In this document: positions 63 to 7,031 of the stretch, in pieces
Layout of the letters: every line of letters begins with the position of its first letter
Position numbering within the stretch: the stretch's first letter is position 1
Virus record (IMG/VR): IMGVR_UViG_3300042880_000061
Coordinates: 1 to 31,418 of that record
DNA: 31,418 nt
Direction: 5' to 3' (one strand)
Origin: a virus
The notes under the pieces: model-generated
Told to the model about the DNA's origin: nothing
The model's input: the letters and a program-made list of their open reading frames with translations, nothing else
Databases searched by the model: none
Program-made: the position numbers and the translations under genes

Positions 63-223
63 ATTACATAAATCATGCACACGAAAAAGCCAAAGCAATG
101 GAGCGTGAGCAGATTGAGGAGGCGTTTATGGATTCTTCATGGTTTGAACACGATGATCATTCTAATGAAAGGATTTCAACGCAATACTACAACGCAACTT
201 ACAAAGGAAGCTCCAATGAATAA
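26..223 (+). CDS. Small phage protein, start codon not resolved
   Basis: The frame is open from 26 to TAA at 221-223. Its only ATG is at 98, which would give a 41-residue product. The residues before that ATG (an INHAHEKAKAMEREQIEEAF helix) look coding and amphipathic, so the true start is probably upstream, reached from the preceding frame through an indel or a frameshift near base 27. The end of the protein, an AMEREQ helix followed later by QYYNATYKG, resembles a small unannotated protein common in Bacteroidota phages; this is recall, not a search. It overlaps the DnaA-IV-like gene by 8 bases, a normal operon spacing. Function unknown. Confidence 0.5.
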   Translation, partial: QSYYNRFTNDVIDYINHAHEKAKAMEREQIEEAFMDSSWFEHDDHSNERISTQYYNATYKGSSNE

Positions 224-797
224 CTACTACACATTCAACAATCAAATCGTGTGCAAGGTCGGTGAGGTGGCAGTCCACAACTCCATTGGCGTACCCGAAG
301 CCCATGCGCTATTCAGAGCCAATGGCAAGTATCTCACTATGGGGATCAATGACTATGAAAACCACATGAAGCCCGTTGAATCGGAGGCGGTTGTGCACCT
401 AATCGACAACCAGCGCAAGTCAGAGGCCATCATGGACTGCATGGCACTATCGCATGGGCCGATTGAGTTGTGGACCACAAGGCGCAGGCATAGGGTTCAT
501 GCAAGGGCACGGCATCTGTTGTTTTGGGCGCTCAGAAACGCTACCACCATGACACTTGTGGAGATCAGCAGAATGATACCGAATAACTATGACCACGCAA
601 CGGTGATCCATGCCTGCAAAGTAATTGATCAGGAGATTGAATCAGGGGATCATGAGATCATTGCACGGGCGCAGAGTATTGCATCTATTCTTGAATTGAT
701 TGGATGCACTAAGTTAAGCAAGCGCATAGAGGCCTTGTCAATGAGGTCGAGCATCGCTAAAACTAGAATGCAGAAAAACCGCGAAATTATTTCTTAA
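216..797 (+). CDS. DnaA domain-IV-like DNA-binding protein
   Basis: The product has 193 residues. Residues about 89-140 look like the C-terminal DNA-binding domain of the replication initiator DnaA: a basic RRRHRVHARARH segment is followed by a helical stretch and then DHATVIHAC (126-134), matching the DnaA signature DHTTVlhA. The AAA+ ATPase domain is absent, so this is not a full DnaA; the N-terminal 85 residues are unrecognised. It may bind DnaA-box-like sites in the phage origin or act as a regulator or decoy for host DnaA (inference). The ATG at 216 is preferred because AAAGGAAG lies just upstream and the longer reading from 75 covers the preceding gene. The methyltransferase follows 3 bases after its stop. 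Confidence 0.65.
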   Translation: MNNYYTFNNQIVCKVGEVAVHNSIGVPEAHALFRANGKYLTMGINDYENHMKPVESEAVVHLIDNQRKSEAIMDCMALSHGPIELWTTRRRHRVHARARHLLFWALRNATTMTLVEISRMIPNNYDHATVIHACKVIDQEIESGDHEIIARAQSIASILELIGCTKLSKRIEALSMRSSIAKTRMQKNREIIS

Positions 798-800
798 CCT

Positions 801-1823
801 ATGAACCACATTGGACTATTTGAAGGCATTGGAGGTTTTTCGATTGCTGCTAGGCAAATGGGATGGGAAACCATCGCTTGGTGCGAGATCAACCCATTTT
901 GCCAAACTGTTCTAAAACATCATTACCCAAACGCTACACCACACCATGACATCAAACAAACAGATTTCACTATTTACCGAGGAGAGTGCGACATCATTAC
1001 CGGGGGATTTCCTTGTCAACCATACTCAACTGCCGGGAAGCGACTTGGCAAAGAAGATGAGCGCCACTTGTGGCCCCAGATGCTTAGAGCGATACGAGAG
1101 GTTGCCCCGCGTTGGGTTGTCGGCGAGAATGTTCGCGGGTTACTTAGTTGGAATGGAGGGTTGGTATTCGACGAGGTGCAAACTGACTTGGAAGCTTGTG
1201 GGTACGAAGTCTGGCCGTTTATACTTCCAGCTTGCGGTGTCAACGCTCCCCACAGACGGGATAGGATTTGGTTTGTTGGCTACGCCAAACACAATGGACT
1301 TCATGCCTCCAAAATCAGAGGAAATGAGCAAGAACCACCCATCAAGACCAGGGCGAACGAAGTCGGGCAATCTTCGCGAACAAGTGGCATGGAATCAAGT
1401 TGGCCTACTCAAAACACCAACGAAAATGGATGGAGAGGTGACATCGGGCAAAAAGAATCCGAAGTCGGGCAACTCAGGAACATTAGCGCAAGAGATCATG
1501 AGCGAATACCCACCGACAATGGAGAAGTTGGGGTTGCTACCAACTCCGCGAACAACCGACCAAAGGATGCACTGGAAAACGGAGAATTGGAAAGAGGACG
1601 ATCTCGGTTCATGGATGAACGAAATGTGTGGGACTCGTTCCCATCTGAATCCCCTATTTGTAGCGGAGATGATGGGCTTTCCCTTGGACTATCTGACATT
1701 ACCTTTTCAAAATGGCGAAACGAATCCATCAAAGCATTAGGCAACGCGGTAGTTCCGCAGGTAGTTTTACAAATTTTCAAAGCAATAGAACAATGCAACC
1801 AATCAACCACCCAACAACAATAA
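801..1823 (+). CDS. DNA cytosine-5 methyltransferase
   Basis: The 340-residue protein has the C5-methyltransferase motifs in order: I, FEGIGGFS (8-14), which binds S-adenosylmethionine; IV, GGFPCQPYS (68-76), with catalytic Cys72; VI, GENV (108-111); VIII, HRRDRIWFVG (151-160); and X, GNAVVPQV (314-321). It transfers a methyl group to carbon 5 of cytosine in a sequence set by the region between VIII and X (about 160-300), which is low in recognisable structure. It has no visible partner nuclease, so protection of phage DNA against host restriction is the likely role. That same region is dual-coded: a second frame is open from 946 to 1740. The gene starts 3 bases after the DnaA-IV-like gene. 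Confidence 0.93.
   Translation: MNHIGLFEGIGGFSIAARQMGWETIAWCEINPFCQTVLKHHYPNATPHHDIKQTDFTIYRGECDIITGGFPCQPYSTAGKRLGKEDERHLWPQMLRAIREVAPRWVVGENVRGLLSWNGGLVFDEVQTDLEACGYEVWPFILPACGVNAPHRRDRIWFVGYAKHNGLHASKIRGNEQEPPIKTRANEVGQSSRTSGMESSWPTQNTNENGWRGDIGQKESEVGQLRNISARDHERIPTDNGEVGVATNSANNRPKDALENGELERGRSRFMDERNVWDSFPSESPICSGDDGLSLGLSDITFSKWRNESIKALGNAVVPQVVLQIFKAIEQCNQSTTQQQ
946..1740 (+). CDS. Overprinted ORF inside the methyltransferase gene
   Basis: This ORF of 264 codons lies wholly inside the C5-methyltransferase gene in another frame of the same strand. The product is not random-looking. It contains GLLATPNTMD (109-118), GLLKTPTKMD (153-162) and GLLPTPRTTD (196-205), three copies of a GLLxTPxxxD motif, and ends with SHLNPLFVAEMMGFPLDYL before GETNPSKH. 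From memory, proteins with repeated LLPTP motifs and a NPxFVxEMMGFP ending are annotated in Bacteroidota phages near such methyltransferases, which supports real coding. Function unknown; given the position, it could be a methyltransferase partner or a second specificity-related protein. No clear ribosome-binding site precedes the ATG. It could alternatively be a by-product of codon bias in the variable region. Confidence 0.55.
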   Translation: MTSNKQISLFTEESATSLPGDFLVNHTQLPGSDLAKKMSATCGPRCLERYERLPRVGLSARMFAGYLVGMEGWYSTRCKLTWKLVGTKSGRLYFQLAVSTLPTDGIGFGLLATPNTMDFMPPKSEEMSKNHPSRPGRTKSGNLREQVAWNQVGLLKTPTKMDGEVTSGKKNPKSGNSGTLAQEIMSEYPPTMEKLGLLPTPRTTDQRMHWKTENWKEDDLGSWMNEMCGTRSHLNPLFVAEMMGFPLDYLTLPFQNGETNPSKH

Positions 1824-2862: not shown

Positions 2863-2914
2863 ATCCGATTGGCGAGTAGTGCTGTAACCACGAAAGCCAG
2901 TCGGATATTTTTTT
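2863..2914 (+). terminator. Terminator-like hairpin in the leader (attenuator candidate)
   Basis: ATCCGATTGGC (2863-2873) pairs with GCCAGTCGGAT (2896-2906) over 11 base pairs including one G-T wobble, with a 22-base loop, followed by a run of seven T (2908-2914). The next gene starts at 2919. A terminator between a strong promoter and its gene suggests attenuation or a short RNA of roughly 95 bases. Confidence 0.6.
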
Positions 2915-2918
2915 GGTT

Positions 2919-3617
2919 ATGAATTACATTCAGTTAATCAACAACTTTTGGGATGAGGTGCCCCACACACAAGGTTACAAATCTCAATATGGAATCCTTT
3001 ACTTTGCCATTGTTAATTGTGTCAATCGAAATAGTTGGAGGCCAACACGAATTGACTACGACCGCTTAATGAATAGCGCAGGAATTTCTAAGCCTTTGTT
3101 TTTGGAAGGTCGAAAGTGGTTGTCTGAATCCAAACTTATCAAGTTTCAAGAAGGGAAAAACGCCTATACGATGGCAGTTTATGAGGTAAATATATTGACC
3201 GCTACTAGTACCGCTACTAGTACCGCTACCGATACCGCTACCATACCTTCTACCTTACCCAATAGTAAACATATAAACTATATAAACAATAAACAAGTAA
3301 ACGAGGGCGATGCCCCCACACCCAAACCCAAACAAAACACACTTCCTCAACCTGCACAAGGTGACATAGTCGACTACATGATTGAATATTCAACCATCAA
3401 CAAAAAACCTTTCACCAAATCCTTTCTCGAAACCGAATCGGCCAAAATGTTTAACTACTACGAATCAAATGGTTGGATCGTTGGTAAGTCGCCAATGAAA
3501 AATTGGAAGGCTGCTGCTCGTAATTGGTTGATTAATTCTCAAAATTCCAATAAATTTGCAGCAACAAGTTCCGCCGCGGAGCGCCCAACTCAAACCAATA
3601 GAACGATATACACATGA
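2919..3617 (+). CDS. Phage replication initiator / helicase-loader-type protein
   Basis: The 232-residue product has an N-terminal region (about 1-95) compatible with a winged-helix fold (YGILYFAIVNCVNRNSW, then ISKPLFLEGRKWL), a low-complexity linker of TAT repeats (about 95-115), and a C-terminal helical part ending NWKAAARNWL. This layout resembles DnaD/lambda-O type initiators, and it is followed directly by DnaB through a 4-base ATGA overlap. The likely role is to bind the origin and recruit the helicase. The ATG at 2919 is used; an alternative TTG at 2913 lies in the terminator T-run. The linker is encoded by iteron-like DNA repeats (see 3198-3301), suggesting that the origin lies inside the gene. 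Confidence 0.7.
   Translation: MNYIQLINNFWDEVPHTQGYKSQYGILYFAIVNCVNRNSWRPTRIDYDRLMNSAGISKPLFLEGRKWLSESKLIKFQEGKNAYTMAVYEVNILTATSTATSTATDTATIPSTLPNSKHINYINNKQVNEGDAPTPKPKQNTLPQPAQGDIVDYMIEYSTINKKPFTKSFLETESAKMFNYYESNGWIVGKSPMKNWKAAARNWLINSQNSNKFAATSSAAERPTQTNRTIYT
3198..3301 (+). repeat. Iteron-like repeats plus AT-rich stretch: candidate internal origin
   Basis: Four 12-base units stand head to tail: ACCGCTACTAGT at 3198 and 3210, ACCGCTACCGAT at 3222 and ACCGCTACCATA at 3234. They are followed by a strongly AT-rich stretch (about 3257-3301) holding repeated ATAAAC words. Repeats next to a melting region inside an initiator gene copy the architecture of the lambda origin inside gene O. The repeats also encode the TAT linker, so they could merely be a low-complexity coding repeat. 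Confidence 0.5.
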
Positions 3618-6254: not shown

Positions 6255-6379
6255 CGGCTGCGTGTATGAGCAGTTGCGGACTTTAACCACAAAACTTAAT
6301 TAAAAGCAGAAATTATGAATACACAAGAAACTTTATTTGAAACAAATAACCCGCAATTGCTTATACACGATGTTAGCGG
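6251..6379 (+). repeat. attC-like element 3
   Basis: Left core CTAAC (6251-6255) faces right core GTTAGCGG (6372-6379). GTGTATGAGCAGTTGCGG (6262-6279) pairs with CCGCAATTGCTTATACAC (6351-6368) over all 18 positions, 16 Watson-Crick and two G-T at the same relative places as in element 2. The loop carries the leader and ATG 6315. Cassette B begins GTTAGCGGT and ends ACCGCTAAC. Confidence 0.78.
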
Positions 6380-7031
6380 CTGTGCATTATTTCACGGAGA
6401 TTGTTTTTCTTTTTCAATACCTGAATACGATTATATAATAAGTGATTTGCCATACAATACAAAGTATGCAGATTGGGACAAAGGATTTAATGCCAATAAA
6501 TTTTTTGATATGAAAGCCAAAGGTTTTGTTTTGTTTGCGGTGCAACCATTAACAAGCGAACTGATTATGGCAAATAAAAAGCAATACAAGTATGATTTAG
6601 TTTGGAGTAAAAACTGCTACAAGAGTAATTCATTTAAAACAAGACCTGGCAGACAACACGAAACTATATTGATATTTGGGAATTTGCCATATAATGCTCA
6701 AATGACAAAAAGAACCGAAACAGAAATGCAAAGGTTGAATTATGAGCAAAGAAAAAAATATCAATACAAAAATCCTGGCAGCGTATTATTTTTTGATGCC
6801 ATAAACAACAGGAACGGAAATAGAACAGGACATCCCGCAGAAAAACCTTTGGATTTAATGGAATGGATTATTAAAACATTTACGAATGAAGGCGATACAA
6901 TATTTGACCCATTTATGGGAACTGGAACAACTGGCGTGGCTTGTCTGAAAAATAACAGAAAATTTATTGGCATTGAAAAGGAAAAACAATACTTCGATAT
7001 TGCCTCGGAGCGTCTTTTGCATTGCCGCTAA
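6315..7031 (+). CDS. Beta-class DNA methyltransferase, adenine-N6 or cytosine-N4 (cassette C)
   Basis: The 238-residue protein has motif IV as DLPY (44-47; usual DPPY) before motif I DPFMGTGTTG (198-207), the beta-class order, plus HPAEKP just upstream of motif I. It transfers methyl from S-adenosylmethionine to an exocyclic amine; DLPY is an accepted variant. Residues 1-19 (MNTQETLFETNNPQLLIHD) are encoded by attC-like element 3, and recognisable methyltransferase sequence (ALFHGDCFSF) starts immediately after the crossover point G6372/T6373, so the enzyme itself lies in the cassette. The stop is in the GCCGCTAAC core of element 4. The gene is AT-rich. No cognate restriction enzyme is evident. 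Confidence 0.9.
   Translation: MNTQETLFETNNPQLLIHDVSGCALFHGDCFSFSIPEYDYIISDLPYNTKYADWDKGFNANKFFDMKAKGFVLFAVQPLTSELIMANKKQYKYDLVWSKNCYKSNSFKTRPGRQHETILIFGNLPYNAQMTKRTETEMQRLNYEQRKKYQYKNPGSVLFFDAINNRNGNRTGHPAEKPLDLMEWIIKTFTNEGDTIFDPFMGTGTTGVACLKNNRKFIGIEKEKQYFDIASERLLHCR

Follow-up and report, generated by a model that had tools for sequence, protein, structure and literature searches.

A C5-cytosine DNA methyltransferase gene in a 31,418-base virus contig (hereafter the window, i.e. the whole stretch of DNA that was analyzed) contains a second long open reading frame (ORF), which raises the question of whether the same bases encode one protein or two and, if two, what the second one does. The methyltransferase ORF, here called alpha, occupies positions 801..1823 on the plus strand and encodes 340 aa with matches to PF00145 (E 4.8e-45), phrog_363 (4.4e-73) and TIGR00675 (1e-39). 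The nested ORF, beta, lies wholly within it in the +1 frame (946..1740, +) and runs from an ATG to a TAG stop over 264 aa, while the +1 frame as such is stop-free over 274 codons in the window. The first-pass annotation had correctly placed this ATG-started ORF, and also correctly described three GLLxTPxxxD repeats in its product, namely GLLATPNTMD (residues 109-118), GLLKTPTKMD (153-162) and GLLPTPRTTD (196-205), a recognisable ending (HLNPLFVAEMMGFP), and a repeat in the methyltransferase frame over the same bases (VGYAKHNG, PTQNTNENG and ATNSANNRP). Directly upstream of the methyltransferase gene, a protein with a DnaA C-terminal helix-turn-helix (PF08299, 5.4e-9) is encoded at 75-797 (+). 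Elsewhere in the window, a second DNA methyltransferase of this phage, of the N6_N4_Mtase family (PF01555, 1.5e-34), is found at 6315-7031 (+), and a 12-base tandem repeat in about 4-5 copies (3198-3259, +) encodes the TATSTATST stretch of the ORF at 2913-3617.

Biased sequences can have stop-free second frames, and with a repeat present in both frames the open frame could be an untranslated by-product of the composition or repeats of the methyltransferase. This was addressed by shuffling synonymous codons within the methyltransferase, by which both protein and codon use are preserved. For the window gene, 5.9 stops were expected in the span of the nested ORF and none of 2000 shuffles was open (the minimum being one stop), with a Poisson chance of an open span of about 0.003 in this gene alone. 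An earlier estimate of about 3 in a million had assumed uniform codons. Openness in a single gene is merely moderately surprising, and it is conservation across genes that decides. Among 82 non-redundant related genes, the beta span contained no stops, versus 6.9 per gene expected from synonymous shuffling, whereas the same test in the +2 frame gave 19.6 stops observed versus 21.6 expected, i.e. no comparable depletion. Since this set includes genes found via similarity to beta, retained where the beta span was assignable, genes picked by the methyltransferase alone were also counted, and the +1 frame was open up to the motif-IX block in 70 out of 71 of them. In the enterobacterial clade (79 genes), +1 ORFs have a median length of 312 codons, versus 46 in the +2 frame.

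Constraint on synonymous sites points the same way. Among identical residues, the fraction encoded by the same codon is 0.79 over the recognition region (0.40 after shuffling) and 0.89 over the motif-IX part (0.37 after shuffling). Outside the overlap the corresponding fractions are 0.51 and 0.50 versus 0.41 and 0.43 shuffled, a residual excess that is an effect of relatedness, and the synonymous constraint on the methyltransferase drops at both ends of beta. At the protein level, the variable region of alpha (residues 166-275) is less conserved than the beta frame over the same bases (0.23 vs 0.35), and in the third LLPTP module conservation is 0.62 in the beta frame vs 0.30 in the alpha frame. 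From alpha motif VIII to motif X beta is the conserved frame, and over motifs IV-VIII conservation is seen in both. Random stops in the second frame of homologues, or a lack of constraint on synonymous sites, had been named beforehand as the patterns to be expected if the second frame were not maintained; neither was found, and the suggestion that both frames are conserved was borne out. With shuffles that never open the span, a +2 frame that is not depleted, and a constraint that stops where the ORF stops, an untranslated by-product is scarcely credible, and the nested ORF is a conserved gene, with both frames under selection.

Beta also begins at an ATG of its own. Of the 82 genes, 99% have an ATG where one is expected, versus 52% in shuffles, the former figure being somewhat favoured by selection as the genes had been assigned starts at those positions. 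In the enterobacterial clade, whose genes were chosen by the methyltransferase alone, a GGAG precedes the ATG at +115 by about 8 bases in 64 out of 64 distinct genes, versus 7% expected, and both elements sit in the invariant alpha peptide ERSIEDV. Such a conserved Shine-Dalgarno sequence and ATG inside alpha indicate internal initiation, and beta is presumably translated in the window phage too. In the Bacteroidota clade no such Shine-Dalgarno sequence was found ahead of the beta ATG, a lack that is usual in this phylum. The +1 frame might instead be reached by programmed frameshifting, giving an alpha-beta fusion with motifs I-VIII, the recognition region and motif IX, in keeping with a segment order on the DNA that is that of a canonical enzyme and with the existence of fused relatives. 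However, motif X would then be lost unless a second shift followed, beta residues 43-100 are conserved although they lie well upstream of a useful shift site, and neither the nearly universal beta ATG nor the Shine-Dalgarno sequence ahead of it in every enterobacterial gene fits such a mechanism, which we regard as very improbable.

With internal initiation as the preferred reading, the next matter is what each of the two chains contains. The catalytic motifs of PF00145 were all located in alpha (plus strand throughout): motif I (FEGIGG, SAM binding, residues 7-12) at 819..836, motif IV (GGFPCQP, containing PCQ and the catalytic Cys72, invariant in the alignment) at 1002..1022, motif VI (ENV, residues 109-111) at 1125..1133, the motif VIII region (APHRRDR, residues 149-155) at 1245..1265 and motif X (IKALGNAVVPQ, residues 310-320) at 1728..1760. 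Motif IX, on the other hand, is absent, as a profile built from 40 canonical sequences of this motif gave no match in alpha. The place that the recognition domain and motif IX hold in canonical enzymes is taken by alpha residues 174-291 (1320..1673, +), a predicted disordered linker with pLDDT values of ~30-40 over most of its length. The predicted structure of alpha has a confident catalytic domain resembling M.HaeIII and M.HhaI, to which the match is limited, and the alignment to M.HhaI covers motifs I-VIII only. Judged by profiles and the structural model, alpha is without motif IX and without a folded recognition domain; what a single-chain C5-methyltransferase combines in the same chain is here supplied by the other frame.

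In beta, the gap of alpha (nt 1320-1673) corresponds to residues 126-243, which include the second and third LLPTP modules and the greater part of a motif-IX-like block, HLNPLFVAEMMGFPLDYL. The three modules are encoded at 1270..1299 (GLLATPNTMD), 1402..1431 (GLLKTPTKMD) and 1531..1560 (GLLPTPRTTD), and the block, within residues 231-250, at 1636..1695 (all +). When the 40-sequence canonical motif IX profile was compared with beta by hhalign, a match was obtained at LNPLFVAEMMGFPLDYL with a score of 21.0, the maximum among 100 column-permuted beta alignments being 14.8; a plain hmmsearch with canonical motif IX against beta stayed below significance. Motif X of alpha lies 18.7 codons past the GFP of beta, and this IX-to-X distance on the DNA equals the median of the relatives (18.7) and compares with 17 aa in canonical enzymes. 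The link between beta and motif IX is thus drawn from profile comparison, spacing and the fused relatives described below. Upstream of the modules, beta residues 43-100 (1072..1245, +), with the pattern W..STRC.LTWK..GTK..R.YFQL, lie over alpha motifs V-VIII and are conserved in both frames; strands are predicted at residues 78-86 and 92-100 with modest confidence, and the segment is probably a domain by which beta docks on alpha. The LLPTP region is probably the target-recognition domain, its position suggesting contact with DNA.

No family was assigned to beta by Pfam and NCBIfam, and a profile search of the PDB gave no match. An AlphaFold model of beta alone was of low confidence (mean pLDDT 54), and Foldseek found no fold match for it; an obligate partner would explain so poor a model, which is not proof of one. 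In PHROG, the window beta (1.4e-18) and the nested products of Fernvirus, Lacticaseibacillus and Klebsiella phages all match phrog_1008, which is labelled just DNA methyltransferase, with overlap and role unstated.

The strongest argument for beta as the part that carries recognition and motif IX comes from sequence relatives in actinophages, in which fused and tandem arrangements were found. Moonbeam gp69 and Aggie gp53 are single-chain enzymes with motifs I-VIII, LLPTP modules, motif IX and motif X in one frame, their motif-IX block being e.g. LHPAFPEWMMGWPAGW. Backyardigan gp74/73, CloudWang3 gp91/90 and Firecracker gp6/5 are tandem pairs in a +1 relation, with overlaps of 23, 179 and 209 bases, respectively, and with motifs IX and X in the second gene. 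(The single-chain or tandem loci are L426:786-1889, L433:451-2103, L431:990-1986, L432:939-1884 and L434:876-1971.) The third arrangement, full nesting with motif X in the first gene, is that of the window. Matches of the beta profile to the actinophage proteins are modest (E 1.7e-8 to 3.9e-5, Z=1000), and profile comparison of beta with Moonbeam gave P 9.5e-7 across the expected region. At L075:2787-3740, the parts of alpha and beta share a single frame through an indel ahead of alpha motif VIII, which is itself lost; an error of sequencing or assembly could account for this, as could a natural fusion. In the marine phage KM23-C739 (L429:795-1720) a frameshift interrupts the alpha frame, and beta has an annotation of its own, as a separate cytosine methyltransferase.

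Could beta, even so, be a true overlapping gene with an unrelated role, e.g. antirestriction or regulation, next to an alpha that is a complete enzyme alone? Selection on two frames would suit any functional protein, and beta alone has no known fold match. Against this stand the absence of motif IX from alpha by profile, the disordered gap of 118 residues at the place of its small domain, and the occurrence of the same segment in frame within single-chain methyltransferases. Nor was beta found without alpha: it lies inside alpha in 79 out of 79 bacterial loci, each beta match in 50 whole genomes sits at a PF00145 match, and no stand-alone LLPTP gene without alpha was found in these loci and genomes. 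We therefore consider an unrelated role very improbable. The first-pass annotation, which had seen an extra overprinted protein, was right that the second gene is real; since beta carries what is missing from alpha, namely motif IX and the recognition region, the two chains most likely belong to one enzyme, with beta as a subunit and not an unrelated protein.

The locus is thus very probably a C5-cytosine DNA methyltransferase that is naturally split, with both subunits encoded by the same bases and the recognition part residing in beta. One transcript would be translated from two initiation sites. Alpha (frame 0) would provide SAM binding and catalysis through motifs I-VIII and X, joined by the disordered linker, and beta (frame +1) would provide target recognition through the LLPTP region together with motif IX. 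Docked on alpha by its N-terminal segment, beta would complete a single enzyme that methylates phage DNA, the most likely role being evasion of host restriction. This account is supported by selection on both frames, the own start of beta, the complementary motif content and the fused relatives, while we infer translation in this phage, assembly, activity, specificity and protection from restriction. As for its origin, a plausible route would start from an ancestor of the single-chain or tandem form, in which two frameshifts compensating each other arose on either side of the recognition region and each frame was then extended over the other.

The arrangement appears to recur across many phages and bacteria that are unrelated to one another. 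Nested beta genes were detected in Paenibacillus, Lacticaseibacillus and Bacteroides phages, as well as in those of Klebsiella, Escherichia (N15, K1ind1) and Salmonella (epsilon15), among others. The genomes that harbor them are mainly Bacteroidota, with single cases elsewhere, and in a draw of 396 genomes from one phylum there were three matches, the seed genome included. An association of LLPTP-repeat proteins with such methyltransferases in Bacteroidota phages, stated in the first-pass annotation, was confirmed, but it extends beyond that phylum. The enterobacterial and Bacteroidota forms were joined by profile comparison (P 1.4e-11), and the scattered distribution is as expected for a phage-borne gene. 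Separate searches returned 69, 200 and 577 phage records, counts that are redundant and not additive, the last consisting chiefly of the fused and tandem actinophage forms. The enterobacterial phage methyltransferases (L343-L345, L337, L346-L425), those of epsilon15, N15 (gp58) and K1ind1 included, have the same nested frame, with one of the two frames annotated in most records. A seemingly degenerate copy (L340 and L342, G052:C1:1140482-1141325) has a partial alpha match and stops in the beta frame, as if the two frames were decaying together.

A widespread group of phage methyltransferase genes seems to encode two proteins, of which databases mostly list one, annotation retaining one frame and dropping the second. 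Codon optimisation of a synthetic gene would remove beta unnoticed and be expected to give an inactive enzyme, and if the recognition domain were predicted from alpha, the sequence so read would be a linker without meaning. The fused, tandem and nested relatives amount to a naturally replicated test bed for the evolution of dual coding. It is a possibility, to which we give a little less than even weight, that split C5-methyltransferases with interleaved frames are widespread in phages, with LLPTP modules (2-5 per protein) acting as exchangeable recognition units, changes in specificity having to preserve two frames, and fused, tandem and nested forms interconverting while the +1 relation is kept.

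Compared with known systems, the locus differs from M.HhaI and M.HaeIII, whose catalytic domain is matched by alpha, in that these enzymes hold the recognition domain as well as motifs IX and X in a single chain read in a single frame. Internal genes in methyltransferase genes with the same +1 relation have been annotated by depositors in the Paenibacillus larvae phage Sitara (gp59/gp60), whose internal gene product has direct similarity to the window ORF, and in K1ind1 (ORF29/ORF28); in those records they are called hypothetical, methyltransferase or Mte8-like, and not a subunit. A literature search, with most subscription papers outside its reach, gave no description of nested phage methyltransferase genes, of an LLPTP nested subunit and its spread, or of a fused-tandem-nested series. 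The split mechanism has a precedent, whereas no mention of beta as an LLPTP protein, of how widely it is spread or of the series turned up in the literature searched.

Two enzymes provide this precedent. In one of them, M.EcoHK31I, the gene of the smaller subunit is nested in that of the larger one in another frame, as it is in the window. The other, M.AquI (CYCGRG), is a two-polypeptide C5-methyltransferase in which the catalytic part and the recognition part are divided between two chains, the small subunit containing half of the variable region along with motifs IX and X (PMC3404938). The window differs from it by keeping motif X in alpha, and the actinophage tandem pairs, with motifs IX and X in the second gene, resemble it. 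M.EcoHK31I (YGGCCR), likewise of two polypeptides, has motifs I-VIII and X in its larger subunit, motif IX solely in the smaller one, and a recognition domain predicted in the larger (PMC3404938), a prediction that does not define the type. The window shares with it the presence of motifs I-VIII and X in the larger chain and of motif IX in the smaller one, the latter by profile score and spacing as given above and below significance in a plain HMM search. It differs in that the recognition part apparently lies in beta, alpha residues 166-275 being variable and disordered. As M.EcoHK31I was compared by description and the recognition region is apparently in beta, the locus is best placed as a variant of the M.EcoHK31I kind rather than an established member, a variant in which the nested gene would supply target recognition as well as motif IX.
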